A stretch of DNA of 64,000 nucleotides from NCBI GenBank assembly GCA_027491335.1, contig JAIXWJ010000025.1:1-64000 (forward strand), given 5' to 3'. Each line of letters opens with the position of its first letter. Position 1 is the first letter of the stretch. The notes beneath the pieces were generated by a model that was given only the letters and a program-made list of their open reading frames with translations, did not search any database and was not told where the DNA came from. The translations under genes were made by a program, and so were the position numbers. Origin of the DNA: Actinomycetes bacterium (lineage in GTDB: Bacteria > Actinomycetota > Acidimicrobiia > Acidimicrobiales > Ilumatobacteraceae). This document shows, one piece after another, positions 9,979 through 53,092 of this stretch.

Positions 9979-9980
9979 TC

Positions 9981-10868
9981 ATGGTGATGCCGAACGTCGG
10001 CCCCGGTGGTCTGGGGATCATCGAAACCATGATGGGGTTCCCCGATCCCGACCCGCGACGTCTGTACGAGTTCTTCCGCGGAAACATCCGCGACAAGGAG
10101 AGCAAGGAGACGATGTTCCCGGTCGAGTACTTGTTCAAGCAGAACGTTCCCGGAGCGCTGACCGAGGACATCGATCCCGTGGAGGTGGCCATCAACACCA
10201 TGGATCACTTCGGCATCGATCGTTCCATGATCGGCATCGAGGGTGACCCCGGTCTGCGAGCACTGACCGAGTATCCCGAGCGATTCATTCCCTCGTGCAG
10301 TGCCGATGCCAACAACGGTGTCGATGAAGTGCGCAAGATTCGTCGTCTTCACGACGAGCACGGATTGAAGGCGGTGGGCACGTTCCCCGCCGGATGCACA
10401 CCCCAGGTGCCCATCGACCACGCTCGTTGGTATCCGATCTACTCGGTGTGCGCCGAGTTGGGTATCCCGATCTTCATCTGCGCCGGAATCCCCGGACCCC
10501 GGGTTCCGAGCATGTGTCAGCACGTGGAGTTGCTCGACATCGTGTGTTACGACTTCCCCGAACTCAAGATCGTGACTCGACACGGCTGCCAGCCCTGGAC
10601 GGAGTTGATGGTGAAGCTGATGTTGAAGTGGCCCAACCTCTACTACTCCACCAGTGCGTTCGCGCCCAAGCACTACGACCCGCGCATCATCGATTACGCG
10701 AACACCCGTGGTGCCGATCGCGTGATCTACGCGGGCTACTGGCCGATGGGGCTCACCTACGAGCGCATCATGGGTGACATGCCCCACGTTCCTTTCAAGG
10801 ATCACGTGTGGCCCAAGTTCCTGCGCGAGAACGCTTTGGCGGTGCTGGGTCTTCCCGACGTGCAATGA
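9981..10868 (+). CDS. Amidohydrolase family 2 paralogue with degenerate metal site
   Basis: The fold is the same as that of the upstream gene, judged by the barrel pattern (IDRSMIGIEGDPG, ERFIPSCSADANN, GIPIFICAGIPGPRVP, LKIVTRHGC). The N-terminal D-x-D/N-H strand is absent, and the final GSDFPH block reads YAGYWPMG, so the last metal-binding Asp is lost. At 295 residues it is shorter than its neighbour. It sits 2 nt behind that gene, and its own stop overlaps the ATG of the serine hydrolase. A non-catalytic or altered partner subunit is a reasonable reading, but the true substrate and activity are unknown. Confidence 0.8.
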   Translation: MVMPNVGPGGLGIIETMMGFPDPDPRRLYEFFRGNIRDKESKETMFPVEYLFKQNVPGALTEDIDPVEVAINTMDHFGIDRSMIGIEGDPGLRALTEYPERFIPSCSADANNGVDEVRKIRRLHDEHGLKAVGTFPAGCTPQVPIDHARWYPIYSVCAELGIPIFICAGIPGPRVPSMCQHVELLDIVCYDFPELKIVTRHGCQPWTELMVKLMLKWPNLYYSTSAFAPKHYDPRIIDYANTRGADRVIYAGYWPMGLTYERIMGDMPHVPFKDHVWPKFLRENALAVLGLPDVQ

Positions 10869-12055
10869 CGCGTGCCGTGCCGAAGACGTGGGGGTTCGTT
10901 GTCGGTGGGTTAGCGACAGTTTTGATTTCGATGTTTTTCCCGCTGGATGGAACGAGGTCGATTGCCGCCTCCGAGATCGGCGAATTCGTCGGAACATCGG
11001 GAGGCGGAAGCGCGAGTTCGGGTGCTCGGCTTTTCGCGGCGAACCTTTTCGTGGAGATCATCGCCTCCCAAGTTCTCGAAAAAGACGGGGACGCGGTCTC
11101 GGTGGGAGTTGTCGACGTGGGCGGGGTCCCGTTCGGGTCGGTGCGGCAACGCGGTTCGGCCGAACCCGCTCTGACGATCGACACGCCGTTTCGTATGGCC
11201 AGCGTCAGCAAGACGGTCACCGCCACGGTGGTCCTTGGGCTGGTCGACGACGGGTTGCTCTCGCTCGATGATCGGCCGGTCGCCGCACTTTTGGATCGTC
11301 GTGGGGTGTCGTGCGGCATCGAGGGACTTTCCGACATTCGGGTGCGCGATCTGTTGGCCCACACCTCCGGGTTCGACTCGGGAAGGGAGTGGTTCTTCGA
11401 CGAGGTGGTGGACGACACCCGGGAGCTCCTCGGCCGATTCTGCTCGAGCGGCCTGCGCACATTGCCCGGCGCCTCCTATCGCTATAGCAACCTCAACTAT
11501 CTGCTTCTGGGTTGGTTGATCGAGGACGTGACGGGCACGACGTACGCCGCAGCGGTCGATTCGTTACTCCTCGAACCGAACGATCTTGAGTCGTTTTCTT
11601 TTCGGACAGCATCGGCGCTTCAATCGGCTGAGCCGACCTATTACATCGACCCCGGATCGAATTACATGGAGTTACTGGGCGCCGCGGGCGCATGGTCATC
11701 GTCGGCAATCGATCTGGCTCGATTCGCACGGATTCTGCGGGCGAGTGAAGTGGATCGTGGTCCGTTGAGTTCCCGGATGTGGGCGGCGATGCGAACTCCG
11801 ATGAGACTCTCTTCCGGAGGCTCCTCCTGGAGTTACGGACTCGGCTTGCGCCTGTTCTCCGGTGGCAGTTGGGGTCACACGGGTTCCATCGAATCGATCA
11901 AGGCGCTCATGATCGGACTCCCCGATGGCGGTTCGGTGGCGGTGTTGGTTGATGGCGATCGGCCGGAGAGAACCGACGACTTGATCGAGATCGTGGCCGA
12001 GGCGTGGTGGATGACGCATCACGTGGGCTTCTTGATCGCGATCCCGCCCACGTGA
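10865..12055 (+). CDS. Exported serine hydrolase, beta-lactamase-related (class C fold)
   Basis: The 396-residue protein has an N-terminal membrane or signal segment (about residues 8-27) and a beta-lactamase/DD-peptidase-like domain. The nucleophile motif is SVSKT (S-x-x-K), the second is YSN and the third is HTG near the C-terminus. These proteins are usually esterases or peptidases rather than true beta-lactamases. The ATG at 10865 overlaps the amidohydrolase stop (ATGA), which is preferred to an upstream in-frame start. It ends at a double palindrome shared with the convergent thioesterase. Confidence 0.85.
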   Translation: MTRAVPKTWGFVVGGLATVLISMFFPLDGTRSIAASEIGEFVGTSGGGSASSGARLFAANLFVEIIASQVLEKDGDAVSVGVVDVGGVPFGSVRQRGSAEPALTIDTPFRMASVSKTVTATVVLGLVDDGLLSLDDRPVAALLDRRGVSCGIEGLSDIRVRDLLAHTSGFDSGREWFFDEVVDDTRELLGRFCSSGLRTLPGASYRYSNLNYLLLGWLIEDVTGTTYAAAVDSLLLEPNDLESFSFRTASALQSAEPTYYIDPGSNYMELLGAAGAWSSSAIDLARFARILRASEVDRGPLSSRMWAAMRTPMRLSSGGSSWSYGLGLRLFSGGSWGHTGSIESIKALMIGLPDGGSVAVLVDGDRPERTDDLIEIVAEAWWMTHHVGFLIAIPPT

Positions 12056-12072
12056 GTCACGCGTGAATCACG
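12051..12072. terminator. Two tandem 11-bp palindromes between convergent genes
   Basis: CGTGA-g-TCACG (12051-12061) is followed directly by CGTGA-a-TCACG (12062-12072). The TGA stop of the serine hydrolase lies in the first and the stop of the thioesterase in the second. It may be a bidirectional terminator or a protein-binding site. Confidence 0.45.
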
Positions 12073-12541
12073 GCCGTGGGGCCGAGACGCTGTAGGTCAG
12101 CGAGCCGCGGGCCAGATGCTTGCCCGACGTGCGACCATGAACGTTCGCCTCGCAGAAAACGATCGATCGACCGCGCTTCACGACGACACCCTCGGCGACG
12201 GCATCCTCCTTCACGAGTGCGGATAGATATTGCACGTGCATGTCGATCGTGCTGTAGCCGATCTCCGGTCCATAGGCCGAACCGATGGCGGGCACGACGA
12301 CGGCGTCGATGAGCGTGGCGATGGCGCCCCCATGAACGATGCCCATCGGCTGTTCGAGTTCCGGCTTGAACGGCAACACCATCCGGCAGTAGTCGAGACG
12401 GACGGCCTCCACGCGCAGACCGACGAGCTTGGGGAAATAGACCCGGTCCCATTGCCCGAAGCGCAGCCAACGTTCCGCGACATCGGCCGAAAGCTCCGCG
12501 AACTCGTCTTCCTTGTGATTCATGGGCTCGGTGTGATTCAT
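12068..12541 (-). CDS. Hotdog-fold thioesterase (PaaI/YdiI-like)
   Basis: The 157-residue single hotdog domain has the helix block PMGIVHGGAIATLIDAV typical of PaaI-type acyl-CoA thioesterases (the HGG turn and a following Asp). It ends with SLTYSV. The likely substrate is an acyl- or aryl-CoA. The N-terminus is duplicated: MNHTEP is followed by MNHKED, because an 18-bp segment carrying the start codon is repeated. The first ATG (12541) is chosen since a CACAGT box lies 6 nt upstream; the second is at 12523. Confidence 0.85.
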   Translation of the reverse strand: MNHTEPMNHKEDEFAELSADVAERWLRFGQWDRVYFPKLVGLRVEAVRLDYCRMVLPFKPELEQPMGIVHGGAIATLIDAVVVPAIGSAYGPEIGYSTIDMHVQYLSALVKEDAVAEGVVVKRGRSIVFCEANVHGRTSGKHLARGSLTYSVSAPRP

Positions 12542-12574
12542 GGGGACACTGTGTCACGCGCGCCCCCGTTGGGG

Positions 12575-12580
12575 CAGAAT
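12575..12580 (+). promoter_or_regulatory. Putative leaderless -10 box (CAGAAT) for nagA
   Basis: CAGAAT ends 6 nt before the GTG at 12587 and supports that start codon. It deviates from TANNNT at the first position. Confidence 0.35.
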
Positions 12581-12586
12581 GCGCGG

Positions 12587-13699
12587 GTGGAGCGGATTCG
12601 TCACGATCGGGTGTTGTTGCCCGAAGGGGGTCTGGGTCCGGCGACGATCACCGTGGATGATGGTCGAATCGTGGCCGTCGAGCCGGCGGACTCCGGCACA
12701 CCTCGCACGATCGGTTCGTCGACGGGCTCGATCCTGGCACCGGCCTTCGTGGATCTGCAGGTGAACGGCGTCGACGATGTCGATGTGTGGTCGAGCGCGC
12801 TCGAGAGTGACGACGAGCGCTGGGATCGGTTGGAGCAAATGCTCATCGATCGCGGAGTGGGCACGTGGTGCCCGACGCTCGTGACCGCGTCGGCCGGCAA
12901 GTACGCCCCGGCGATGGCGTATCTGGCGAGCCGAACGCGTCGCGCGGATCGCCCCGACGCTGCCGGTGTCCATCTCGAGGGGCCGTTTCTCGGGTCGTCG
13001 ACCGGAGCTCATCGAGCCGAGTTGGTGGAACCCCCGACGCGGGACTTCTTCGACGCGTTACCGAACACTCCCATCATCGTCACTATGGGTGCCGAGCACG
13101 AGAACTCTGCGAACGTGATCGGCGAGCTCGTTCGTCGCGGCGCGGTGGTCTCGATCGGTCACACGCGCCCGGAACGCCGTGGTTACGAGGATGCGGTCGC
13201 GGCGGGCGCCCGCATGGTGACGCACGTGCACAACGCGATGAGCGGCATGGCACACCGAGACCCCGGCTTGGCAACGTGGGCGTTGAACGACGATCGCGTG
13301 GTGGTTGGTCTCATCGCCGACGGAGTGCATGTTCATCCCGACATCGTGCTCCTGACGTTTCGTTCCAAGCCGGACGCGGTCGCCCTGGTCACCGATTCGG
13401 TGGCATGGCGAAGCGGTCGCGCCGGTCCGGTGCGCATGACGCTCGTCGACGGAGCCCCACGCCTGCCCGACGGCACGTTGGCGGGGAGCGCCACCACCAT
13501 GTCGGACAGCCTGCGGGTGTGTCGTTCCTCCGGAGTGCCTCTGGAGGATGCGTTGCGGGCCGCGACGTCGACGCCGGCGCGGGTGATCGGCCGAGGAGAC
13601 GTGGGATCCATCCGCGTGGGTGCCCGCGCCGATCTGGTGTCGTTGAACGACGATCTCGACGTGGTGGGTGTCTGGCTCGGCGGGGCACGACTGCGTTGA
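12587..13699 (+). CDS. nagA: N-acetylglucosamine-6-phosphate deacetylase
   Basis: This metal-dependent deacetylase converts GlcNAc-6-P to glucosamine-6-P, in amino-sugar or cell-wall recycling. The 370 residues are standard. Key blocks are PAFVDLQVNG, GVHLEGPFL with the metal Glu, SIGHTRPE, the HVHNAMSGMAHRDPG block, GLIADGVHVH and the catalytic aspartate in ALVTDSV. The GTG start at 12587 is chosen over a long upstream frame that is antisense to the thioesterase. No nagB or transporter lies beside it. Confidence 0.9.
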   Translation: MERIRHDRVLLPEGGLGPATITVDDGRIVAVEPADSGTPRTIGSSTGSILAPAFVDLQVNGVDDVDVWSSALESDDERWDRLEQMLIDRGVGTWCPTLVTASAGKYAPAMAYLASRTRRADRPDAAGVHLEGPFLGSSTGAHRAELVEPPTRDFFDALPNTPIIVTMGAEHENSANVIGELVRRGAVVSIGHTRPERRGYEDAVAAGARMVTHVHNAMSGMAHRDPGLATWALNDDRVVVGLIADGVHVHPDIVLLTFRSKPDAVALVTDSVAWRSGRAGPVRMTLVDGAPRLPDGTLAGSATTMSDSLRVCRSSGVPLEDALRAATSTPARVIGRGDVGSIRVGARADLVSLNDDLDVVGVWLGGARLR

Positions 13700-13714
13700 T
13701 TTCGCCTCGGTCGC

Positions 13715-13720
13715 TACCCT
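13715..13720 (+). promoter_or_regulatory. Putative leaderless -10 box (TACCCT) for the 13728 gene
   Basis: TACCCT ends 7 nt before the ATG at 13728. Confidence 0.45.
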
Positions 13721-13727
13721 GACCGCC

Positions 13728-14123
13728 ATGCAGATCGTGTCGGCCCTTTTCGTGGAGAACTTCGCCATGCGTCAGGCCCCCGGGCCGAGCACCCGTATCG
13801 ACATCACGGGAGCCATGTTCTCCATGGCTTCCCCCTCGCCGGTACCGGTGACGCTCGACCCGCACCTGATCGCTCTCATCCATTGCGCGCCCCATCAGAG
13901 CGGCGCCGGGGTCTTCGAGGTCGTTTTCCGTCGGGGAATGAACGAACAGGACGAGCAAATCGCGCGCAACGTGAGCCCATTCACCGTGGAGCCCGGCAAG
14001 TTCACCTATCGCCTCGTGAAGGCCGAATTGGAGTTCACCGAGTACGGCCAGATCTTCGCTCATTGCCGGGTGGATCATGGCCCCTGGCACTTGGTGCCCT
14101 TCACACTGTTGCCTCCGGCCTGA
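13728..14123 (+). CDS. Unknown 131-residue protein, predicted beta-rich
   Basis: I do not recognise this with certainty. It starts MQIVSALFVENF and alternates short hydrophobic strands (RIDITGAMFSM, LIALIHC, VFEVVFR, FTYRLVKAELEFTEYG, AHCRVD). The pattern suggests a compact beta-sandwich, loosely like small DUF6941-type proteins. There is no signal, membrane segment or catalytic motif. Its last codons and TGA are copied in a 23-bp tandem array that fills the gap to tkt. Confidence 0.7.
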   Translation: MQIVSALFVENFAMRQAPGPSTRIDITGAMFSMASPSPVPVTLDPHLIALIHCAPHQSGAGVFEVVFRRGMNEQDEQIARNVSPFTVEPGKFTYRLVKAELEFTEYGQIFAHCRVDHGPWHLVPFTLLPPA

Positions 14124-14197
14124 TCCGGCTGTTGCCTCCGGCCGGAACCGGCTTATGCCCGCTACCTGAACCGGCTTTTGTCTACGGCCCGACCCGC
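14106..14197. repeat. 23-bp tandem repeat (4 copies) starting inside the 3' end of the 13728 gene
   Basis: Units run 14106-14128, 14129-14151, 14152-14174 and 14175-14197. The first holds the final codons and TGA of the gene. Unit 2 is nearly identical to unit 1; units 3 and 4 are increasingly diverged, keeping the CCGG-CTT/CTG joint. This gradient suggests duplication outward from the gene end with decay of the older copies. Confidence 0.8.
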
Positions 14198-14225
14198 GAA
14201 GATCAGGTCGTCGGGACCCGCGGAT

Positions 14226-14231
14226 TACAGT
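14226..14231 (+). promoter_or_regulatory. Putative leaderless -10 box (TACAGT) for tkt
   Basis: TACAGT ends 6 nt before the GTG at 14238 and decides that start; no spaced Shine-Dalgarno sequence is available. Confidence 0.5.
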
Positions 14232-14237
14232 CGGAGT

Positions 14238-16199
14238 GTGCCGACTTCACTGGATCCGACCACCGATCGCGCCGCCGTCGATATTGCTCGCGGCTTGGCC
14301 ATGGATGCCCCGTTGGCGGTCAAGAGCGGGCATCAAGGCACCGCGATGTCGTTGGCGCCGTTGGCTCATGTTCTGTACAGCCGGGTCATGAAGCACGATC
14401 CGTCGGATCCTTTCTGGGCCGATCGTGATCGCTTCGTGTTGTCGGCGGGGCACGCGTCGATCCTGCAGTATTCGATGCTCTTCCTGCAGGGCTACGGATT
14501 GACGCTCGACGATCTGAAGGCGTTCCGCCAGTGGGGCTCGGCGACCCCCGGACACCCCGAAGCCGGTCACACACCCGGCGTCGAGGTCACCACCGGTCCG
14601 CTCGGACAAGGAATCGCCAACGCGGTGGGTCTGGCGATGGCCGAACGTCATGTGCGCGCGCGATTCGGATCCGACGTGTGTGATCACCACACGTGGGTGA
14701 TCGCCGGCGACGGATGTTTGATGGAGGGTGTCAGTCACGAGGCGGCATCCTTCGCCGGACACCAGAAGTTGTCCCGCCTCGTGGTGGTGTTCGACGACAA
14801 CGGCATCACCATCGATGGGGGCACGGGCCTCACGTGCAGTGACGATGTCGCCAAGCGATTCGAGTCCTACGGCTGGTCGGTGCGGTCACTCGGCGAGATC
14901 GGCGAGGACCTCGACGCGTTGGAGACGGCGCTCGTCGAAGCGCGTGACTCGGACGACGAGCGACCGAAGTTGCTGATCCTGCGCACCAAGGTCGGCGTTC
15001 CCTCTCCCGACTGGACCGGCAAGCACGAGGCGCACGGCAACCCGTTCACGGCCGAACACGTGTCGCGCACCAAGGCCGTCATGGGCATTCCCGACGAGCC
15101 GTTCTGGGCGCCGGACTCCGTGTTGGCGACCGTTCGCGCGGCCGCCCAGCGCTGTCGGGCCGAACGTGAAGCGTGGACGGCGCGCGTCGCCGGTCGTTCC
15201 GAATGGAACACTTTCGTGAAGGGACCGAGTGCCGGGTGGTCCGACGCGCTCCCGACCTTCGAACTCGGCGAGTCGATCGCCACGCGAGTGGCGATCCAGA
15301 AGGCCTTCGACGGCGTTCTGGCCGCGGTCCCCGGACTCGTCTCGGGGTCGGCCGACCTCACCGGCAACACCGGCACGAAGTTGTCGGGTCAAAGCGCCGC
15401 CTCCCCCGCCACTCCCGACGGACGTCAGGTGTACTACGGCATTCGCGAGCACGCCATGGGATCGATCATGGTGGGCATGGCCCTCCACGGTGGTTTGTTG
15501 CCGGTGGGTGGAACGTTCTTCGTGTTCTTCGACTACATGAAGCCTCCGGTACGGCTGGCGGCGTTGTCGCGTGCGAAGTGCATCTTCGTCTTCAGTCACG
15601 ATTCGGTCGGTGTCGGAGAGGACGGCCCCACTCACCAGCCCATCGAGCATCTGGCCGCGTTGCGCGCCATTCCCGATCTGCAGGTGATTCGGCCGTGCGA
15701 TGCCAACGAGACGTCGCAGGCGTTGCGCGCGGCGATCGAGCACGATGGACCGACGGCATTGGTGCTCAGTCGACAGAATCTTCCCGTCGTCTCCGATGGA
15801 AGTGCCGTGACGTTGGGCGCCGGAGTGCTGCGCGAGGGTGCGGACGTGTGCCTCGTGGCCACGGGTAGCGAGGTGGCGGTGGCGCTGGCGGCCGCCGACC
15901 GCTTGGCCGAGTCGGGTATCTCGTCGCGCGTCGTGACCATGCCATCGTGGGACCGATTCGAAGCCACGCGGCGTTCGGATCGCGCGCGCGCCGAGGCGAT
16001 TCTTCCGAGCACCATGAAGACCGTCTCCATCGAGGCCGGAGCCACGCTCGGTTGGCACAAGTACGCCGACGAGTGCGTCGGGATCGATCGCTTCGGGGCG
16101 AGTGCTCCCGGTGGTGTGGCGTTGACCAATCTGGGCATCGAAGCCGGCAACGTGGTGAGCGTCGTCGAGGAGCTTCTCGGACGCGGAGCCTCGAACTGA
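14238..16199 (+). CDS. tkt: Transketolase
   Basis: This thiamine-diphosphate enzyme of the pentose phosphate pathway moves two-carbon units between sugar phosphates. The 653 residues cover the full length: the substrate loop KSGHQGTAMSLAP, the ThDP/Mg motif from GDGCLMEG to FDDN, and the pyrimidine domain with YGIREHAMG and GEDGPTHQPIEH. The GTG start is set by homology of the following residues and by the leaderless box. Transaldolase follows after 5 nt, so the two form an operon for the non-oxidative branch. Confidence 0.97.
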   Translation: MPTSLDPTTDRAAVDIARGLAMDAPLAVKSGHQGTAMSLAPLAHVLYSRVMKHDPSDPFWADRDRFVLSAGHASILQYSMLFLQGYGLTLDDLKAFRQWGSATPGHPEAGHTPGVEVTTGPLGQGIANAVGLAMAERHVRARFGSDVCDHHTWVIAGDGCLMEGVSHEAASFAGHQKLSRLVVVFDDNGITIDGGTGLTCSDDVAKRFESYGWSVRSLGEIGEDLDALETALVEARDSDDERPKLLILRTKVGVPSPDWTGKHEAHGNPFTAEHVSRTKAVMGIPDEPFWAPDSVLATVRAAAQRCRAEREAWTARVAGRSEWNTFVKGPSAGWSDALPTFELGESIATRVAIQKAFDGVLAAVPGLVSGSADLTGNTGTKLSGQSAASPATPDGRQVYYGIREHAMGSIMVGMALHGGLLPVGGTFFVFFDYMKPPVRLAALSRAKCIFVFSHDSVGVGEDGPTHQPIEHLAALRAIPDLQVIRPCDANETSQALRAAIEHDGPTALVLSRQNLPVVSDGSAVTLGAGVLREGADVCLVATGSEVAVALAAADRLAESGISSRVVTMPSWDRFEATRRSDRARAEAILPSTMKTVSIEAGATLGWHKYADECVGIDRFGASAPGGVALTNLGIEAGNVVSVVEELLGRGASN

Positions 16200-43890: not shown

Positions 43891-44442
43891 TCAGAACTTC
43901 ACTTGAGGAGCGACGCGAGCGCCGTCCTCGGCCTCGAAGAACTCCCGGCGGGAGAAGGAGCCGAACTTGGCGACGATGAGCGTGGGGAAGGTGTCCAACT
44001 TGTTGTGATAGCCGAGGACACTGTCGTTGTAGAACTGGCGCGCATAGGCCACGCGACCTTCGGTGGCGCTCAATTCCTCCTGCAGGGCGAGGAAGTTCTG
44101 GTTGGCCTTCAGATCCGGGTAGGCCTCGGACAACGCGAACAATTGTCGCAGTGCTCCGCTCACCATGTTGTCGGCGGTGGCTTGTGATCCGGGCGTGGGA
44201 GCAGCGGACATGGCGGCCGAACGGGCTTGGATGACCGCGTCGAACGTCTTTTGCTCGTGGGTCGCGTAACCCTTCACGGTCTCGACCAGATTGGGGATCA
44301 GGTCGAGGCGACGCTTCAACTGAACGTCGACCTGGGACCAGGCGTTGTCCACCTGATTGCGGCTGCGCACGAGTCCGTTGTAGAGAACGATGCCGATGAT
44401 GGCCACCAGCACGACGATGCCGATGATGATGCCGATTGTCAT
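43891..44442 (-). CDS. lemA: LemA family protein
   Basis: One N-terminal membrane helix (about residues 2-22) is followed by the LemA helical bundle: LVRSRNQVDNAWSQVDVQLKRR (in part), IPNLVETVKGYA, LFALSEAYPDLKANQNF and YNDSVLGYHNKLDTFP. The family function is unknown. ATG 44442 overlaps the stop of the upstream glycosyltransferase by 4 bp. Confidence 0.93.
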   Translation of the reverse strand: MTIGIIIGIVVLVAIIGIVLYNGLVRSRNQVDNAWSQVDVQLKRRLDLIPNLVETVKGYATHEQKTFDAVIQARSAAMSAAPTPGSQATADNMVSGALRQLFALSEAYPDLKANQNFLALQEELSATEGRVAYARQFYNDSVLGYHNKLDTFPTLIVAKFGSFSRREFFEAEDGARVAPQVKF

Positions 44443-45644
44443 TTGACCAGCATACGGCGAATCGAGTTGCTGGCGAGGGCACGCAAGCGAACCGCGATCG
44501 ACCACCAACGACGCAATCTTCCGATGCGCGGAGCCGACGCGATCGACTCATGGTCCTCCAGCACCCGTCGGTAGATCTCTTCGTAGCGTCGCGCGAGATT
44601 GTTCATCGAGAACTCGCGAGCCCGCACCGCACCCGCGCGCACCAGATCGCCGGCCATCGAGGGGTCGTCGAGCACCTTGCGCAGACCCGCTTCGAGCGCA
44701 TCGACGTTGGCGGGCTCGACGAGCACCGCGTCCACCGAGTCGGTGGCGACGTTCATGTAGCCGTCGAGGGCACTGGCGACGATCGGAGTGTTGGCCGCCA
44801 TGGCCTCGATGAGAACCACCCCGAAACTCTCGCCTCCCAACGACGGCGCGCAGAACACCGCGGCTTGCCGCAAGCGGGAGGCTTTCTCCACGTCGGAGAT
44901 GCGTCCGAGCCATTGGATGCGCGCGTCGCCGGCCCACTCACGCTTGAGTCGATCGGTCTCGGGGCCGTCGGACGCGATCCACAGATCCACGTCGTCGGGC
45001 AGGGTGGCGTGCGCCTTCAACAAATACTCCAGACCCTTGCGAGGTTCGTGGCGTCCGCAAAAGAAGATGGCCCGACGGGACGCCGGTGCCTCGCCGGGAA
45101 CGGGGGCGAAACGCTCGATCTCCACGCCGTTCGGGAGAATCTCGTAGTCGCCACCGAGGTACCTCTCGGCGAGCAGGACCGCGTCCTTGGAGACCGCGAC
45201 TCGATGTTCGATCGCGGCCGCGAATGCCTTCAAAGGTGCGTTCAGATACTTGTAACTAGCGCTCTCTCCGGCGGCGTGGAAAGTGGCGACGATCGGGGCC
45301 ATTTGCATCACGAGGGACGTGAACGTCGGTCCGGGAGACAAAGGCTCATGCAGATGCAAGATGTCGAATTCCTCGTCCTTCAGAACTCGAATGGTCCGCA
45401 GCGAGGCGGACGGATCCGGGGCCAAGGGGGCGACCGATCCGTTGGCGGCGGTGGGCAGCGAATCGCCCAGCGGAGTGACGAAGGTGTCCGGCGGAGCCCC
45501 ATCGCACGGGCCGAGAACGCGCACTTCGTGGCCCATGCGCCGAAGTTCGCGAGCCAAACCCATGACCTGGCCTTGCACCCCGCCGGGGGTGGTGAGGCTG
45601 TAGGGACAGAGAATGCCGATGCGGAGGCGTTCGGTCGACGGCAC
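44439..45644 (-). CDS. GT4 glycosyltransferase, PimA-like
   Basis: The 401-residue GT-B fold protein has an N-terminal PGGVQGQVMGLARELRRMGHEV block, FDILHLHEPLSPGP, VATFHAAGES and the donor-site GRHEPRKGLEYLL and SLGGESFGVVLIEAMAANTP with the E-x7-E pattern. These match phosphatidyl-myo-inositol mannosyltransferase PimA. In mycobacteria pimA follows pgsA1 and the PatA acyltransferase. Here those genes lie at 51.4-53.1 kb, separated by an accessory insert. The substrate is inferred from this context. Confidence 0.85.
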   Translation of the reverse strand: MPSTERLRIGILCPYSLTTPGGVQGQVMGLARELRRMGHEVRVLGPCDGAPPDTFVTPLGDSLPTAANGSVAPLAPDPSASLRTIRVLKDEEFDILHLHEPLSPGPTFTSLVMQMAPIVATFHAAGESASYKYLNAPLKAFAAAIEHRVAVSKDAVLLAERYLGGDYEILPNGVEIERFAPVPGEAPASRRAIFFCGRHEPRKGLEYLLKAHATLPDDVDLWIASDGPETDRLKREWAGDARIQWLGRISDVEKASRLRQAAVFCAPSLGGESFGVVLIEAMAANTPIVASALDGYMNVATDSVDAVLVEPANVDALEAGLRKVLDDPSMAGDLVRAGAVRAREFSMNNLARRYEEIYRRVLEDHESIASAPRIGRLRRWWSIAVRLRALASNSIRRMLVK

Positions 45645-45701
45645 GGTTACTCAAGATACCGATCATTCCCCGCACTACCGTGCCGACATATCGCGACGGC
45701 A

Positions 45702-45707
45702 TAACGT
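45702..45707 (+). promoter_or_regulatory. Putative leaderless -10 box (TAACGT) for the LLM gene
   Basis: TAACGT ends 6 nt before the ATG at 45714. Confidence 0.5.
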
Positions 45708-45713
45708 GACGGA

Positions 45714-46637
45714 ATGTCGTTCGCCAACACTTCGAAAGATTCCCTTCCGGCCCTCTCTATCGTGGCCTCTCCCGGCAAGCGTCGAGCGATCATCGACCTC
45801 GCGCGCGAGGCGGAGATTCTCGGTTTCCCGGCCTTGGCGTGTCCGAGTCTTGGTGGGGCCCTCGGTCTGTGCGTCAGCCTCGCTCATGAGACCCGGGACA
45901 TTCGCTTCTACACCGCGATCCAAGGAATCTACGGAAACTCCATCGGCGAGATCGGCTCGTTGGCGAGTCACACCCACGAATTGTCGGGTGGGCGATTCGC
46001 GTTGGGGCTCGGTGTCAGTCATGAGCCGATGGTGCGGCGCACCGGCGCCACCATGGGACCGCCGTTGAGCGACATGCGCGGTTTCGTGGAATCACTTCGA
46101 GCCAACGCGAAGTACGGCGGCGAGTTGCCGCCCATTTACGTCGCCGCACTACGCGATCGCATGTTGAATCTCGCGTGCGAGATCGGAGAAGGTGCTCTCT
46201 GGGCGAACGCGAGTTTCGGGCACACGACGAAGCAGGTGAACCTGGTTTCCGAATCCGGTCGTGGAGAAGACTTCTACTTGGCCAACATGATTCCGACGGT
46301 CATCGACGAGGACGTCGCCGCCGCGGCCGCGATCAACCGCCGAACCATGACCACCTACGTGCGTCTTCCGAACTATCGCAACTATTGGAAGGCCGCCGGA
46401 TACGTCGAAGAGATGGAACGCATCGAGCTGGCGTTGGCCGAGAAGCGCGTGGACGATCTCGAGTCGATCATGAGCGACGAGTGGCTCGCCGATTGCACCC
46501 TGTTCGGAACACCGCGCACGGTGTTGGAGGGCTTCGAACGTTGGAAGTCGATCGGCGTCCAGCCGATCGCGGTGATGTCGAGCACGAGTGGTGGACAGGT
46601 GAAGGCCATCGGCCAACTCTTCGACTTGTACCGCTGA
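45714..46637 (+). CDS. LLM class (F420-dependent type) flavin oxidoreductase
   Basis: The 307-residue TIM barrel belongs to the luciferase-like monooxygenase group, with REAEILGFPALACPS, the GNSIGEIGSLASHTHELSGGRFALGLG strand region (part) and PPIYVAALRDRML. Actinobacterial members mostly use F420H2. The presence of an F420:NADP oxidoreductase gene supports F420 in this organism. The substrate is unknown. Its 3' end is the start of a tandem repeat shared with the convergent ABC permease gene. Confidence 0.87.
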   Translation: MSFANTSKDSLPALSIVASPGKRRAIIDLAREAEILGFPALACPSLGGALGLCVSLAHETRDIRFYTAIQGIYGNSIGEIGSLASHTHELSGGRFALGLGVSHEPMVRRTGATMGPPLSDMRGFVESLRANAKYGGELPPIYVAALRDRMLNLACEIGEGALWANASFGHTTKQVNLVSESGRGEDFYLANMIPTVIDEDVAAAAAINRRTMTTYVRLPNYRNYWKAAGYVEEMERIELALAEKRVDDLESIMSDEWLADCTLFGTPRTVLEGFERWKSIGVQPIAVMSSTSGGQVKAIGQLFDLYR

Positions 46638-46700
46638 CGTCCCAGCAGTACCGAATGCTGACGTGTCAGCCGTACCGAATGCTGACGTGTCAGCCGAGCC
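46623..46700. repeat. 24-bp tandem repeat between two convergent stop codons
   Basis: Two near-identical 24-bp units (46644-46667 and 46668-46691) follow a diverged unit holding the end and TGA of the LLM gene. The second unit runs into the stop of the ABC permease (46690). Each unit contains the palindrome GCTGAC-GT-GTCAGC (46657-46670 and 46681-46694). The core GCTGACGTGTCA also occurs in the yebC array. Confidence 0.8.
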
Positions 46701-47877
46701 TCAACGTCTCCAGAGGCTCCAGCCGAGCGGCGCGTCGAGCCGGATACAAACCCGCCATGACCGAGATGGTGATGGCCAACACGATTCCGGCCGGAGCCAA
46801 CCACGGTGCCATCACGAACACCCAGCCGGCGATGGACGCGCCAACGAAGATGGACAGCATTCCCAACAGCACACCGCACACTCCCCCGATGACACCGACC
46901 ACGATGGCCTCCAGGAGAAACTGAACGGCGATGATGCGGCGGGTGTGTCCCAGTGCGCGCCGAATTCCGATCTCGCTCGATCGTTGGATCACCGAAATCG
47001 ACATCACGTTGGCGATTCCCAAACCGCCGACGATGATCGCCAACAGTCCCATGGACACCACGATCAACTGGAGTTGGCGATCCGACTGGGCCGCCAGTTC
47101 GAGAGCCTCGCTCTTCACGTCGGTCTTGACCTCGTCGGGTCCGCCGAGGCTGATGGCGGTGGTCAGGGCATCGGCCGATTCGTCCACTCGCGCGGGGTCG
47201 ACGCGCGCGTAGATCTTGTTCGGCAAGATGTCGTCGTCGAGGAAGTCGTTCTCGGCACTGGCGAACGGAATGAACACCGCGGTGTCGAAGCCGGGTTCCA
47301 GCTGCACCGAGTCGAGGATGCCGACCACGGTGTAGTCGAATCCTCCGACGTCGATGGTGCGCAATTCCTCGGGCAGGACTCCGAACTCCCGAGCCAATCC
47401 GACTCCGATCACCGCGGTGCGGGCCCCCGACTCCTCGTCGAAAAGGTTCAACCATCGACCGGAGACCAGCGGAACCTCGAGCACATCGGGCAGGACTGCG
47501 CTGGCGGCCACCACCGGGATGGGAACCGTTTCGTACTTCTCTCGTGCCTCTTCGTAGGGGGTGACGATGATGTTGGTGAGCTCCACGATCGGTGCGACCG
47601 CTTCGACGGTGGTGACGGTCAGCGCTCGCTCGACGACGTCCTTGGGCAGGGTGGGATCCTGTCCGCCGAAGGAACTCGATGCCGATGCCTCGACCAAGTT
47701 CGTACCCAGCTCGGCCACCTTGGCCTTGAGGTCTCCCTTGGCCGAATCGGTCAGGCCGACCGCGGCGATGATGGCCGCCACGCCGATCATCGGACCGAGA
47801 AGAAGCAGCAACGTTCGCACCTTGCGGGCGAGGAGTCCGACCATCGCGACTCGAACGAGATCCCGAAAGACGCTCAT
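46690..47877 (-). CDS. ABC transporter permease, MacB/FtsX type
   Basis: The 395-residue protein has an N-terminal membrane helix, a large extracytoplasmic MacB-type core domain (about residues 45-265) and three C-terminal membrane helices of the FtsX domain (GLLAIIVGGLGIANVM, SSEIGIRRALGHTRR). These transporters work mechanically on substrates outside the membrane. It is the last gene of a lipoprotein-adaptor-ATPase-permease operon and overlaps the ATPase gene by 4 bp. Confidence 0.92.
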   Translation of the reverse strand: MSVFRDLVRVAMVGLLARKVRTLLLLLGPMIGVAAIIAAVGLTDSAKGDLKAKVAELGTNLVEASASSSFGGQDPTLPKDVVERALTVTTVEAVAPIVELTNIIVTPYEEAREKYETVPIPVVAASAVLPDVLEVPLVSGRWLNLFDEESGARTAVIGVGLAREFGVLPEELRTIDVGGFDYTVVGILDSVQLEPGFDTAVFIPFASAENDFLDDDILPNKIYARVDPARVDESADALTTAISLGGPDEVKTDVKSEALELAAQSDRQLQLIVVSMGLLAIIVGGLGIANVMSISVIQRSSEIGIRRALGHTRRIIAVQFLLEAIVVGVIGGVCGVLLGMLSIFVGASIAGWVFVMAPWLAPAGIVLAITISVMAGLYPARRAARLEPLETLRLG

Positions 47878-48563
47878 CGCAGGACCTCGTCGCTCACGAT
47901 GCGCCCGTCGAGCATGGAGACCTTGCGCGCCGCGGAGTTGGCGATGCCGTTGTCGTGGGTGACGATCACGACCGCGCGTTCGTCGGACTGCAGGCCGGCC
48001 AGGATCTCCATCACGTTGGCCGCGTTGCGGGTGTCGAGGGCTCCGGTTGGTTCGTCGGCCAACAGAATCTTGGGTTGCGTTACGAGGGCTCGTGCCAGCG
48101 CCACGCGTTGTTGCTCGCCGCCGGACAGTTGTACCGGACGATGGTCGGCTCGATGTCCGAGTCCGACACGTTCGAGTGATTCCAGGGAACGCTCGCGCCG
48201 TTCGGCGGGCTTGAGGTCGCGATACAGCAAGGCCGTTTCCACGTTTCCGAGGGCATCCAGATGGGGAATCAAATGGAACTGCTGGAACACGAAGCCGATG
48301 CTTTGACCGCGAACGTGGGTTCGCGCACCATCGGCCAGCCCCGTCACCTCGGTGCCTCCCACCGTGATGGACCCCGATGTTGGCGAATCGAGACATCCGA
48401 GTAGTCCGAGCATCGTGGACTTGCCGCTACCGGACGGTCCGACGATGGACACGAAGTCACCGGCGTGGATGGACAACGACACGTCGCGCAGTGCCCAGAC
48501 CATGGCGTCTCCCGATCCGTAGCAACGGGACACACCGTCGAGACGCATCAAGACTTCGGTCAT
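47874..48563 (-). CDS. ABC transporter ATP-binding protein, MacB/LolD type
   Basis: Walker A is GPSGSGKST, the signature LSGGEQQRVALARAL, Walker B ILLADEPTGALD and the switch His is in VIVTHDNG. The length (about 229 residues) is that of stand-alone MacB/LolD ATPases. The ATG at 48563 is chosen; a GTG four codons upstream would overlap the adaptor stop. Confidence 0.93.
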   Translation of the reverse strand: MTEVLMRLDGVSRCYGSGDAMVWALRDVSLSIHAGDFVSIVGPSGSGKSTMLGLLGCLDSPTSGSITVGGTEVTGLADGARTHVRGQSIGFVFQQFHLIPHLDALGNVETALLYRDLKPAERRERSLESLERVGLGHRADHRPVQLSGGEQQRVALARALVTQPKILLADEPTGALDTRNAANVMEILAGLQSDERAVVIVTHDNGIANSAARKVSMLDGRIVSDEVLR

Positions 48564-48567
48564 GGTG

Positions 48568-50718
48568 TCAGCCACCTTCGGTGTCGGCGGCGGGAGACCC
48601 CGATTCGATGTCGACGATCACCAACTCGTCGCCCTCGAGACCTTGCTTGATCTCGGCCCACTCGCCGTCGATGAGTCCGATGACCACCGGAAGACGCGTG
48701 ATCGTGCCCTTGTCGTTCACGATTCGCACGATGTCACCATCGGCCGATCGCAACACCGAGGCAACGGGCACGACGAGTGCGTCCTTCACCTCGGCGAGGG
48801 TGACGTCGATCGACACCGTCGCTCCATCCACCGCGGCGAACTCGCCTTGCACTTCGACGGTTCCTTCGTACGACTCCTCGCCTTGGGGTCCGACCGTCGC
48901 GCTGTCGTCGAGAGCGGAAATCACCCCGGGCAGAACCTGTCCCCCGACCGTGAGATCCACCGACACCGCTTGGCCCACCTCGAGTTCGGCTCGATCGGAT
49001 GGGCTGACCTTCATGGTGATCGTGAACTGCGGTTCGGTGAGATTCAGCATCACCGCTCCCTGCAACACGAACTCGCCCTCGTCCACCTCGACCGAACCGA
49101 CGCGGGCGGGCCAATCGGCGACGATCATGTCGGACGGCTCGAACACCACGTCGTCATTGATGAAGTTCACCGGAATGGTCACGGATGAAGTCCCGCGACG
49201 CATGATCACGGTCCCGGTGAGAACGTCGAAGTCGGTTCCGTTTAGCGTGGTGCCACCGATCTGATAGTTCACCGATGTGTCCTCGGTGACCGGCGAATCG
49301 GCCACAATCCGGAACGATCCCGAACGTCCCTCGGCCACGGTTCCGCCCCCGAGAAGCGTCATCTCGGGAAGATCCGCGCTTTCGATGGTGACCGAGACAC
49401 TCTTGGCCTCTCCGAGGGAGTACTCGGCGGGGCGACCGCCGGTCGGGGCATCGGGAAGCAACGTGAAGACGAGTGTTTCGTCCGGCTCCACGGCGTCGTC
49501 GCGTCGCGCCTGAATCTGGATCTGCGTGCTGCGGGTACCGGCCGGAATGGAATAGACGTCGTCGTCGGGGAGCAAGTAATCGGCGTCCCCGGTGGAGGTT
49601 CCGGACAAGGAGACCTCGAAGTCCAGATCACGATTCGACTCGACCGTGGAGCGGACCGTGAACGTGACGGTGCCGCCCTCGTCGACGGATTGGTTGCTGG
49701 CCGTCACGGTGAGGCGCGGATCGAGGTCGGAGCCGTTGGCTTCGATGACCGTGCGAACCTGGTTGGTGGGGCCGACGTCGTAGTCGGGATCGGTTCCGAA
49801 CTGCTCGGTGAGAGTGATGGTCAGATCCTCCTCGTCCTCGATCACGTTGTCGACGAAGATGTCCGCACTGAAGGTCACCGAGGTTTGTCCGGCGGGCAGA
49901 GTGACGTTGCCCAGGATCTCGCTGTAGTCGTCGCCGTCCAGAGGGTCGTCGCCCTCGGTCGCATCGCCCCCGGTGGCGATGGCGATCACGAGGTTCGACG
50001 TGGGGGCGGCCGATGCGGTCACGGTGTAGGTGATGCTCTCGCCTTCGTTCACCCGCGTCTTGTTGGTGGAGATGGCGATCACCGGCAAGGCCACTCGGGG
50101 GTGCAAGCCCGATCCCGACGTGGATGGAACGGCGGGGGTGACGGTGAACGCGACGGTGTTGGCTCGACCCACGTTGTAGGCCGACGGATTGGACAGAAGG
50201 CTCACGGTGAGCGTTTCGTCTCCCTCGGGTGTGGCTCCTCCGTAGGCGCGGGATTGCTGCCACTGTGCGAGCGCCCGCCTGGTTTCCTCGGTGAACAGCT
50301 CGTCCGGACGCGCGATGTCGAATCCGGCGGCCACCAGAACGTTCTCCAACTGCTTCACGTCGGGTCCGACGCTGCCCACCGACAAGCGACGGTAGAACGA
50401 GAAATCCCCCGCCACGGCCACCGATGCTCGGCCGTCGAGAGCCAGGATCGCGTCTCCCTCTTCGATGGTGTCGCCATCTTCGACGTTGATGAAACTGACC
50501 TTTCCGTCGACGGCGGAGTTGATCTTGCGAGTCTCGTCGCGACGCACCTCGCCGCTCACGGTGAGCACGTCCTGCAGATCGCGACGTTCCACGAGACGTG
50601 GAGTGATCAACAGGGTGGAATCGGACTCTCCGCCACCACCGGAGAACCCGAAGATGGCCACGACCACCAACACGACCGCCCCGAGGGCGGCACCGATGAT
50701 CTTGATACGAGTATTCAC
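48568..50718 (-). CDS. Membrane-fusion adaptor with peptidoglycan-binding domain and Calx-beta array
   Basis: This 716-residue adaptor has a membrane helix (about 5-25) and the first half of an HlyD/MacA-type lipoyl-barrel (about 42-104). A peptidoglycan-binding domain (about 112-158, with GPDVKQLENVL and LFTEETRRALAQWQ) follows. Next come a half Calx-beta unit (about 165-195), full Calx-beta domains (about 211-328 and 335-448) and another half unit (about 450-530). The second barrel half (ADWPARVGSVEVDEGEFVLQ) and a membrane-proximal part follow. Calx-beta signatures are VNEGESITYTV, EDEEDLTITL, VDEGGTVTFTV and VEPDETLVFTL. The GTG has GGGGAA upstream. The Calx-beta block takes the place of the usual coiled-coil hairpin, so contact with an outer partner may be replaced by wall binding. 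The substrate is unknown. Confidence 0.88.
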   Translation of the reverse strand: MNTRIKIIGAALGAVVLVVVAIFGFSGGGGESDSTLLITPRLVERRDLQDVLTVSGEVRRDETRKINSAVDGKVSFINVEDGDTIEEGDAILALDGRASVAVAGDFSFYRRLSVGSVGPDVKQLENVLVAAGFDIARPDELFTEETRRALAQWQQSRAYGGATPEGDETLTVSLLSNPSAYNVGRANTVAFTVTPAVPSTSGSGLHPRVALPVIAISTNKTRVNEGESITYTVTASAAPTSNLVIAIATGGDATEGDDPLDGDDYSEILGNVTLPAGQTSVTFSADIFVDNVIEDEEDLTITLTEQFGTDPDYDVGPTNQVRTVIEANGSDLDPRLTVTASNQSVDEGGTVTFTVRSTVESNRDLDFEVSLSGTSTGDADYLLPDDDVYSIPAGTRSTQIQIQARRDDAVEPDETLVFTLLPDAPTGGRPAEYSLGEAKSVSVTIESADLPEMTLLGGGTVAEGRSGSFRIVADSPVTEDTSVNYQIGGTTLNGTDFDVLTGTVIMRRGTSSVTIPVNFINDDVVFEPSDMIVADWPARVGSVEVDEGEFVLQGAVMLNLTEPQFTITMKVSPSDRAELEVGQAVSVDLTVGGQVLPGVISALDDSATVGPQGEESYEGTVEVQGEFAAVDGATVSIDVTLAEVKDALVVPVASVLRSADGDIVRIVNDKGTITRLPVVIGLIDGEWAEIKQGLEGDELVIVDIESGSPAADTEGG

Positions 50719-50735
50719 GTGTTCCCCACTTCCGC

Positions 50736-51419
50736 CTATCCGTTCTCGATGGCGTCGTTGATTCCGGTCTCGGACAAGCACTGGTCGATGTCACGATCGT
50801 CGAGGCCACCGTCGGCGGACTCGAAACGAGTCGGGTTGATCAGTCCTTGAGCGTCCACCGAGGTTTCGATCTTCCACCCACGCTTCTTCAAACAGTCGCT
50901 CAACAACTTGAAGGCGACGTTGCGTTCCTCGATTTGCTCGGGGGTGAGCGACGTGCGCGTCGACTCGACCTCGTTCAGCACGTTGATGATGTCGCTACGA
51001 GCGGCGCATTTCTGAATGATCTCCAGATACGCCGGATCCTGATACGCCGGATTGTTCGGATCCTGCAGGTTGCCCCGAATCGTCTCCCCGGAATCCTCGA
51101 TGCACCCTTGGAACTCGGCGTAGGCGTCGAACAACTTCAGTTCCGCGGGTCGGTCGTCCTGATTCAGCGGGATCGTGTCGGACGATTCTTCGGATGACGG
51201 GGATTCCGTACCGGACGGATCGTCGGCGGCCGGAGCGGTGGTGGCCGAGGCTTTCATGGCGGCGACCGCTTCGGGCGACATGACCTGAATGTCGTCGGCG
51301 TCTCTCAGGACGATGGTCGTGTCGGCCGACCCACCACATGCGAACAGGCCGACCGAAGCCACCACGACCGTTGCCAGGAGCCCCGATGAGATGGGCCATG
51401 AAGAAGTGGACGTGGACAT
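50736..51419 (-). CDS. Cys-rich lipoprotein encoded with the ABC exporter
   Basis: A signal peptide ends in the lipobox VGLFACGG (C28). A disordered Ser/Thr/Pro/acidic linker (about 55-90) leads to a helical domain with four cysteines (C106, C138, C176, C214), which could form two disulfides. I do not recognise the domain. It lies 17 nt upstream of the adaptor and is the first gene of the export operon, so it may be a periplasmic accessory or substrate receptor (inference). Confidence 0.82.
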   Translation of the reverse strand: MSTSTSSWPISSGLLATVVVASVGLFACGGSADTTIVLRDADDIQVMSPEAVAAMKASATTAPAADDPSGTESPSSEESSDTIPLNQDDRPAELKLFDAYAEFQGCIEDSGETIRGNLQDPNNPAYQDPAYLEIIQKCAARSDIINVLNEVESTRTSLTPEQIEERNVAFKLLSDCLKKRGWKIETSVDAQGLINPTRFESADGGLDDRDIDQCLSETGINDAIENG

Positions 51420-51447
51420 CCGTACCCCGATACGCACGATCGTCAGC

Positions 51448-52404
51448 CTAGGCGTCGATGTCGGCCGTGGGGTCGGTGGGCGGAACTTCGAACGGATAAC
51501 CGGGATCCGATGGCCAGTTCGGTTGGAGCAAATGCCATTGTTCGGGCGCGCGCGAGATGAGCTGTTCCAATTCCTTGGCGACCAACGATGTGATGCGCGC
51601 GACATCGGCGCGCAGGCGTCCCTCGCGTTCGCACGGCACGGGAGGCCGAATCACGCCGAGATGACCGTCGCGTCGATCGGTGAAGTACACCGCGGTGGGC
51701 AGCAACGCGGCTCCGGTGCGCAGAGCCAGGGTGGCGGGACCCGCGGGCATGAGCGTGGTCTCGCCGAAAAAGCGCGTCGGAATGCCACCGCCGGTGATGT
51801 CTCGGTCGCACAACAGGCACAACACCTCGTTCGCACGAAGGGCGTTGAGCGCCGCCGATCCCGCATCGGGGCCGACCGGGATGACCTTCATGCCGAACTT
51901 CTCTCGCAGATCGACGAACCACTCGAACAACTCGGGTGGTTCGAGTGGTTCGACGACCACTGTCATTTTGTTTCCCAGATCGGCGGCCCATCGACCCGCC
52001 CATTCCCATCCTCCGAGGTGGGGCAACGCGAGGATCGCACCGTTTCCACGATCGAGGGCCGGCATGAGGTACTCGTCGTAACCCTCCACCCTGAACGAGT
52101 CGGCCACCTGCCGAGCCGACAACCCCGGGAGGCGGAAACTCTCCACGTAGTAGCGGGCGTAACTGTCGAAGACCTTCTGCGTGAGCCGGCGTATCTGCCA
52201 GTCGGAGGCCGAGGGCACGACTCGTCGCATGTGGCGCTCGACCATGAGTCGCTTGTCCCGCATGGCGATGGAGGCGGGAGCACCGAGTGCCGCGCCGACC
52301 ACGGCCGATAACGCGGTGGGGACGCCCTTCGACAACAGGGAACCCAATTTGTACGCACCGACGGTCAAAGAGTCGGTGATCTCCTGGCGGGGAGACCGGG
52401 ACAC
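51448..52404 (-). CDS. Lysophospholipid/lauroyl-type acyltransferase, PatA-like (HtrB family)
   Basis: The 318-residue LPLAT domain has the catalytic block LPHLGGWEWAGRW (H-x4-E pattern) and IPVGPDAGSAALNALRANEVLCLLCDRD (part), then a RFFGETTLMPAGPATLA block. In mycobacteria the gene between pgsA1 and pimA is the PIM acyltransferase PatA (Rv2611c). This one directly follows a pgsA1-like gene (4-nt gap), supporting that role. It starts with GTG. Confidence 0.87.
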   Translation of the reverse strand: MSRSPRQEITDSLTVGAYKLGSLLSKGVPTALSAVVGAALGAPASIAMRDKRLMVERHMRRVVPSASDWQIRRLTQKVFDSYARYYVESFRLPGLSARQVADSFRVEGYDEYLMPALDRGNGAILALPHLGGWEWAGRWAADLGNKMTVVVEPLEPPELFEWFVDLREKFGMKVIPVGPDAGSAALNALRANEVLCLLCDRDITGGGIPTRFFGETTLMPAGPATLALRTGAALLPTAVYFTDRRDGHLGVIRPPVPCEREGRLRADVARITSLVAKELEQLISRAPEQWHLLQPNWPSDPGYPFEVPPTDPTADIDA

Positions 52405-52408
52405 GCGG

Positions 52409-53092
52409 TCAGCGCAGACGCGACGTCATGCGCGCGCGACGACCGAGTCGCGCCGAGCGACGACTCTGCCGACGGGAACGACGCTGTTCGATCTTGGCCG
52501 CGGTTACCGGTGCCACCGCCGCTTGGCGCCAGACTTTGACGAAGCGTTGCACCGCGGTGACCGAGGTGAGGATCAGCATGATCCACATGATCGGAAGCAG
52601 CAGAACCGGGAACAGCAGACCGAGGCACAACAGGATGATGCGCTCCGCACGTTCCATGATGCCGCCCTTGGCGGACAGTCCGAGCGACTCGGCCTTGGCG
52701 CGTTCGTAGGAGATGACGGAACTCACTGCCGAGACGGCCAACGGGAGAATGGCGGTCTTGGGCGAGTGCTCGTTCGTGAAGTACCAGGCGACTCCGCCGA
52801 AAAGAAGTGCATCGGTGACGCGATCGACGACCGAGTCGAAGAAGGCGCCTCGTTGGCTGGAGGTGTTGGAAGCCTTGGCCAAGGCCCCATCCAGCAGGTC
52901 GGGCAGGGCGGCCAGGATCACCAGGAGAAGTCCCAGAGGCAGGTAGCCGGCTCCGATGGCCACGGCGGCACCGATCGCGATCACCATTCCCGCGATCGTC
53001 AGGTGGTCGGGAGTCATGCGGGTGCGACGCAGGCCGTCACCGAGAGGCTTGACGGCCTTGTCGACCGAACTACGCAGGTGGCCGTCGAACAT
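52409..53092 (-). CDS. CDP-alcohol phosphatidyltransferase, PgsA1/phosphatidylinositol phosphate synthase-like
   Basis: The catalytic motif is D65-x2-D68-G69-x2-A72-x9-G82-x3-D86-x3-D90, with K73 in place of the usual Arg after the Ala. Five to six membrane segments are visible, followed by a very basic tail of about 45 residues. The neighbourhood (thrS, HIT, this gene, PatA-like) is that of M. tuberculosis pgsA1, which makes phosphatidylinositol phosphate, so the same role is likely here. A TAGACT box ends 6 nt before the ATG. Confidence 0.87.
   Translation of the reverse strand: MFDGHLRSSVDKAVKPLGDGLRRTRMTPDHLTIAGMVIAIGAAVAIGAGYLPLGLLLVILAALPDLLDGALAKASNTSSQRGAFFDSVVDRVTDALLFGGVAWYFTNEHSPKTAILPLAVSAVSSVISYERAKAESLGLSAKGGIMERAERIILLCLGLLFPVLLLPIMWIMLILTSVTAVQRFVKVWRQAAVAPVTAAKIEQRRSRRQSRRSARLGRRARMTSRLR

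Follow-up and report, generated by a model that had tools for sequence, protein, structure and literature searches.

The adaptors of MacB-type pumps in Gram-positive bacteria, including the peptidoglycan-binding YknX, have been reviewed (PMC5985334). That review raises as an open question why tripartite-pump adaptors are retained in bacteria that have no outer membrane (PMC5985334). SpMacA is hexameric and is sized to the gap between membrane and wall (PMC5768738). Our literature search, in which subscription journals are poorly covered, found no paper on Calx-beta in an export adaptor.

The locus described here lies in a stretch of 64,000 nucleotides (the window) from an actinobacterium of the class Acidimicrobiia, a monoderm host, as the preliminary description had held. 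Like MacA, SpMacA (Spr0693), and YknX, its adaptor has a transmembrane (TM) anchor, two lipoyl halves, a barrel, and a membrane-proximal domain; like the YknYZ and Spr0694-0695 operons, its cassette has a separate ATPase and a MacB-like permease. In contrast to these systems, the window adaptor lacks the alpha-hairpin and instead has a peptidoglycan-binding domain (PGBD), a probably split Calx-beta domain, and a Calx-beta arm, while the cassette has an extra lipoprotein gene. BesA is a hairpin-less adaptor. This Borrelia protein (PDB 4kku) matches the lipoyl and barrel parts of the window adaptor, although no arm replaces its hairpin.

Domain layout of the adaptor

The start and stop of the adaptor reading frame were verified exactly. 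From the N terminus to the C terminus, a short N-terminal stretch is followed by the TM segment, lipoyl half 1, the PGBD, the Calx-beta repeats, and finally lipoyl half 2 with the barrel and the membrane-proximal domain (Table 1).

Table 1. Features of the adaptor gene and its cassette (window positions; residues are those of the adaptor)
Feature	Positions	Strand	Remarks
Adaptor gene	48568..50718	(-)	GTG start 50718, stop 48568, 715 aa
N-terminal membrane anchor	50644..50700	(-)	residues 7-25; hydrophobic run in translation
Lipoyl half 1	50413..50607	(-)	residues 38-102; Biotin_lipoyl_2 65-95 and model strands
PG_binding_1 (PGBD)	50248..50382	(-)	residues 113-157; Pfam match, model helices 118-129 and 143-156
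Probable split Calx-beta, strands F-G	50134..50232	(-)	residues 163-195, PEGDETLTVSLLSNPSAYNVGRANTVAFTVTP; F-G profile
Calx-beta repeat 1, complete	49738..50091	(-)	residues 210-327; Pfam, model, repeat profile
Calx-beta repeat 2, complete	49375..49722	(-)	residues 333-448; Pfam, model, repeat profile
Probable split Calx-beta, strands A-E	49144..49374	(-)	residues 449-525, ends in NDDVVF
Conserved junction into lipoyl half 2	49099..49134	(-)	residues 529-540, DMIVADWPARVG
Lipoyl half 2, beta-barrel, membrane-proximal domain	48610..49131	(-)	residues 530-703; HlyD_3, RND_mfp, MacA structures
4-Cys-family lipoprotein, cassette gene 1	50736..51419	(-)	lipobox-like LFAC, four conserved Cys
ABC ATPase, MacB/LolD type	47874..48575	(-)	overlaps adaptor gene end
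MacB_PCD/FtsX permease	46690..47877	(-)	Pfam

The preliminary description had read the gene as a MacA/HlyD-type ABC export adaptor with a PGBD and about 330 residues of Calx-beta between its lipoyl halves. The domain search that it had proposed (PF03160, PF01471, and the HlyD families) returned all of these above the Pfam cutoffs and in that order, and a MacB-type permease and ATPase share the cassette. Two lipoyl half-motifs flank the insert, with Biotin_lipoyl_2 (residues 65-95) at 31.0 bits against a cutoff of 29.8 and HlyD_3 (residues 532-621) at 34.9 bits against 22.2. Calx-beta scored 44.9 bits over three stretches (cutoff, 27). PG_binding_1 (residues 118-156) passed barely, at 23.4 bits against a cutoff of 23, and reached 40.2 bits in the homologue L008. 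The NCBIfam model RND_mfp (TIGR01730) covered residues 532-703 at 66.6 bits, short of its whole-length cutoff of 94.9, a deficit that the foreign insert leads one to expect. In phmmer searches of the PDB, residues 625-712 matched MacA (4dk1 and 4dk0). Its lipoyl and barrel parts make the protein a member of the adaptor family; the hairpin is missing, and a Calx-beta arm stands on a probably split base. Homologues at about 30 to 87% identity keep the layout. The recurrence of this architecture in dozens of genomes led us to reject a frameshift or gene-fusion artifact.

An AlphaFold2 model of the adaptor, built from 14 sequences, had a mean pLDDT of 72 and a pTM of 0.32; thus, the domains are credible and their mutual arrangement is not. 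Three beta-sandwich units appear in the model, with local pLDDT values mostly of 75 to 87 in the Calx region. No alpha-helical hairpin lies between the lipoyl halves, where the only helices are the two of the PGBD; the preliminary description was right in this respect. Foldseek placed human NCX1 at the top of the matches to the model (E = 9.9e-10), followed by MacA of MacAB-TolC (E = 4.8e-09), with BesA next among the first listed. The model strands and the NCX1 match together identify the Calx-beta fold that had been expected from structure prediction. Complete repeat 2 gave no Calx match in the PDB by phmmer. It is therefore the Pfam profile, the joined split domain, and the fold that reveal the likeness to NCX1, and not repeat 2.

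The last repeat and its calcium-ligand positions

The preliminary description had reported Calx-beta repeats over this region. The fold and the region counted stand, although only two repeats are complete, and the third is probably split across the insert, which had been missed. Strand E is the last that repeat 3 contains; the repeat breaks off midway through the Ca-loop motif (NDDVVF), and DMIVADWPARVG then leads into lipoyl half 2; DMIVA, W, P, R, and G of this junction are invariant in 14/14 aligned sequences. Among 39 homologous frames, a count that includes some loci or genomes entered twice, the last repeat always ends at profile position 75 to 86 of 114; almost every other repeat extends to position 111 to 114 (the exceptions include repeats with inserts in L011 and L012). 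Two complete repeats precede it in 29 of these frames, three in 8, and four in 2.

A profile of strands F-G, trained solely on repeats 1 and 2, matched the adaptor at residues 165-190, 294-328, and 411-448. For the segment after the PGBD (residues 163-195, PEGDETLTVSLLSNPSAYNVGRANTVAFTVTP), it scored 19.5 bits, compared to at most 8.5 in 2,800 shuffles; the corresponding segment beat all 2,800 shuffles in 12 of 14 homologues. Elsewhere in the window, the best stretch reached 3.1 bits. Joining the segment to repeat 3 raised the score against our own profile from 45.7 to 65.3 and the Pfam Calx-beta score from 17.7 to 25.2 bits. In 33 of 35 homologues, none of 200 shuffles reached the joined score; in each of the other two, a single shuffle equaled it. 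Searched against the PDB, the joined halves retrieved Na/Ca exchangers and nothing else (E = 0.004). In the AlphaFold2 model, strands occupy residues 167-173 and 187-193, inside this segment. A chance likeness to Calx strands was rejected on the basis of the shuffles and the window control.

Residues 163-195 thus probably supply the strands F-G that repeat 3 lacks, so that the insert would be closed at its base by a split Calx-beta domain, from which two to four complete repeats probably project. The strands before and after the insert would together fit one beta-sandwich, as in the split domains of RTX adhesins, where a beta-sandwich is likewise interrupted by projected domains (PMC12077191). 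The two cases differ in that the RTX domain is Ig-like, belongs to an adhesin, and projects ligand-binding modules, while the window domain is Calx-beta and belongs to an ABC adaptor.

Acid conservation was scored over 33 homologues by NCX1 CBD1 ligand position; these positions were placed on the adaptor through alignments together with what is generally known of CBD1. Equivalents of E385, D421, D447, E451, and E454 are acidic in 73 to 100% of the homologues, while other alignment columns are acidic in 8 to 12% on average, in agreement with the acidic, Ca-binding-like loops noted earlier. Equivalents of D498-D499 are absent from the split domain and partial or mostly missing in the other repeats; full CBD1-type sites are therefore not predicted. 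Compared to CBD1 of NCX1 and Calx, the window repeats share the fold and most acidic Ca-site positions but form a tandem extracellular arm, with the last copy probably split and the C-terminal ligand acids mostly lacking. Within the split domain, D521 and D522 (equivalents of D447/D448) lie on the C-terminal side, and E164, D166, and E167 (equivalents of E451/D453/E454) lie on the N-terminal side, the latter being lost in some families (L035-L040). Calcium, if bound here, would bridge both ends of the insert.

Cassette, relatives, and distribution

The cassette runs lipoprotein, adaptor, ATPase, permease, and distant relatives keep these genes together. The ATPase scored 118 bits for ABC_tran (Pfam), 240 bits for MacB, and 225 bits for LolD (NCBIfam); the permease scored 92.9 bits for MacB_PCD and 61.9 bits for FtsX (Pfam). 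The hallmarks of a MacB-type (type VII) system are thus present: a MacB periplasmic core, an FtsX-like permease, and its own ATPase. The lipoprotein had no Pfam, NCBIfam, or PHROG match, and its model had no PDB match (best E, 1.2). Other Actinomycetota carry relatives of it upstream of their compact PGBD adaptors, which places the cassette layout in a wider actinobacterial system. The 4-Cys family accompanies PGBD adaptors in many Actinomycetota (window 50736-51419; L066:974-1474; L102:3542-4180; and others). One locus (L006:820-2162) carries two tandem 4-Cys lipoprotein genes ahead of the adaptor.

In most members of the genus examined, the cassette lies between patA (51448-52404 in the window) and pimA (44439-45644), beside pgsA. 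Across window positions 44439-53092, it interrupts, together with an oppositely oriented luciferase-like gene (45714-46637), a pgsA-patA ... pimA cluster for PIM-type phospholipid synthesis. Genus member G071 has the patA/pimA cluster with the cassette cleanly missing and the flanking genes joined; the luciferase-like gene alone interrupts that cluster (L113). Conversely, G655 has the cassette without patA/pimA neighbors. Other genera and families carry the cassette at other genomic sites, and no neighbors beyond the four cassette genes were common across the class. This joint presence and absence indicates that the cassette behaves as a unit and that its position is weak information about the substrate.

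Compact lipoyl-PGBD-lipoyl adaptors occur across Actinomycetota (e.g., L066, L073, L078, L086, and L102). Like the window adaptor, they hold a PGBD between the lipoyl halves, and their loci likewise have a related 4-Cys lipoprotein upstream and an ATPase adjoining the adaptor. They differ in lacking Calx-beta, and their ATPases are at most about 52% identical to that of the window and fall outside the Calx clade. The PGBD at the hairpin position, singled out by the preliminary description, is thus not rare. It is the Calx-beta arm that is unusual, PGBD adaptors and the four-gene cassette being common in Actinomycetota.

Other adaptors of the class either have no further insert after the PGBD or carry a coiled coil or second lipoyl-PGBD unit there, and some relatives have a PGBD together with a coiled coil. 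The tandem second unit was observed between the lipoyl halves of adaptors L045, L085, L093, L094, and L099. Within the Calx type, homologues from Microthrix show an extra PGBD-like stretch and weaker further repeats, as read from the sequence, and in two marine Acidimicrobiales homologues the F-G loop of Calx-beta repeat 1 holds an insert of 163 to 198 residues (approximate sites, L011:5961-6449 and L012:2539-3132). This insert, charged, helical, and poor in Pro and Gly, is probably a coiled coil.

An ATPase tree places all 35 Calx-type cassettes in one group with 100/100 support, apart from the compact and coiled-coil types, indicating that the Calx-type cassette has a single origin. The fusion of Calx-beta to an ABC adaptor had been thought rare, and the survey agrees: the Calx type was found in 25 of 296 sampled Acidimicrobiia genomes (E < 1e-50) and, in a 397-genome sample of the phylum, in four genomes, all Acidimicrobiia and none outside the class. 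The architecture is thus neither common nor, as far as the literature search reached, already described. The window's own genus accounts for 21 matching genomes out of 24, its own genome included. When 84,980 species genomes were scanned with patterns that detect close relatives only, Calx-type loci came solely from actinobacteria, mostly labeled Acidimicrobiales or Acidimicrobiia. The Calx-arm design is apparently confined to one actinobacterial group. As a separate observation, G086 encodes two surface proteins of more than 1,400 residues with several Calx-beta repeats, unrelated to adaptors (L101:1711-6654 and 9968-14359).

Possible roles of the arm

Taken as a whole, the explanation that we consider reasonably probable is that this protein serves a MacB-type ABC exporter (type VII, mechanotransmission) as its adaptor and that a wall-facing Calx-beta arm has replaced the alpha-hairpin in it. 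By homology to MacA and SpMacA, the lipoyl, barrel, and membrane-proximal parts would assemble on the permease, and the PGBD between the lipoyl halves would dock on peptidoglycan. The preliminary description had proposed that the adaptor may cross and grip the cell wall, possibly under calcium control. With F-G after the PGBD and A-E ahead of lipoyl half 2, the split Calx-beta domain would hold the two ends of the insert to each other, and two to four whole repeats would project as an arm of variable length. The conserved acids suggest that Ca2+ probably stiffens the repeats; in the split domain, Ca2+ held by acids of both ends could staple the arm shut. The substrate may come from the outer leaflet or from the gap between membrane and wall; the permease, moving at the expense of ATP, would then force it through the ring and into or beyond the wall. 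The lipoprotein is a putative accessory component. A bolder version seems unlikely to us, namely, that extracellular Ca2+ closes the shared-site split base and that the resulting calcium-stapled, length-variable, wall-spanning arm carries the export path or grip through the monoderm wall.

Bacterial surface proteins commonly contain rods of Calx-beta folds, and the arm could be a mere rigid, Ig-like spacer on a split base, without functional calcium binding, its acids serving fold or solubility. The loss of most C-terminal D498-D499 ligand positions and of the N-side acids of the split domain in some families would fit such a spacer. However, the retained acids coincide with the NCX1 ligand set (73 to 100%) and almost no other column is acidic; we consider this alternative somewhat improbable. 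We regard as unlikely a ligand-binding or adhesive projection, with the pump as its anchor or with the arm capturing a wall or external ligand: the projected domains are all the same Calx-beta rods, without a recognizable binding module, and in every case the cassette encodes an ABC exporter in full. There is precedent in RTX adhesins, whose split domains project ligand-binding domains from the main axis (PMC12077191), and the added PGBD-like stretch and repeats in Microthrix and the variable repeat number would also suit a projection.

Two further alternatives concern the cassette as a whole. Its site between patA and pimA, beside pgsA, in most genus members examined could point to export of phosphatidylinositol mannosides or related lipoglycans. 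This is very improbable given G655 and G071, in which cassette and cluster occur separately, and was rejected as a general explanation since the cassette is sited elsewhere in other genera and families. An FtsX-type permease with a predicted wall-binding adaptor might instead form an FtsEX-like signaling device that passes ATP-driven movement to wall enzymes and exports no substrate; MacB_PCD with a lipoyl adaptor is, however, the hallmark of an export assembly, and no hydrolase is present in the cassette, so that we give this proposal little credence.

Under the exporter reading, a putative wall-binding domain and a Calx-beta arm, its base probably split, have taken the place of the segment that contacts an outer-membrane channel in other adaptors. 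Sister lineages show different arrangements at this position: no insert, a coiled coil, or a further lipoyl-PGBD unit. With this natural series, domain deletions can address directly what the insert does, and the predicted split Ca-site allows calcium control to be probed by precise point mutations.
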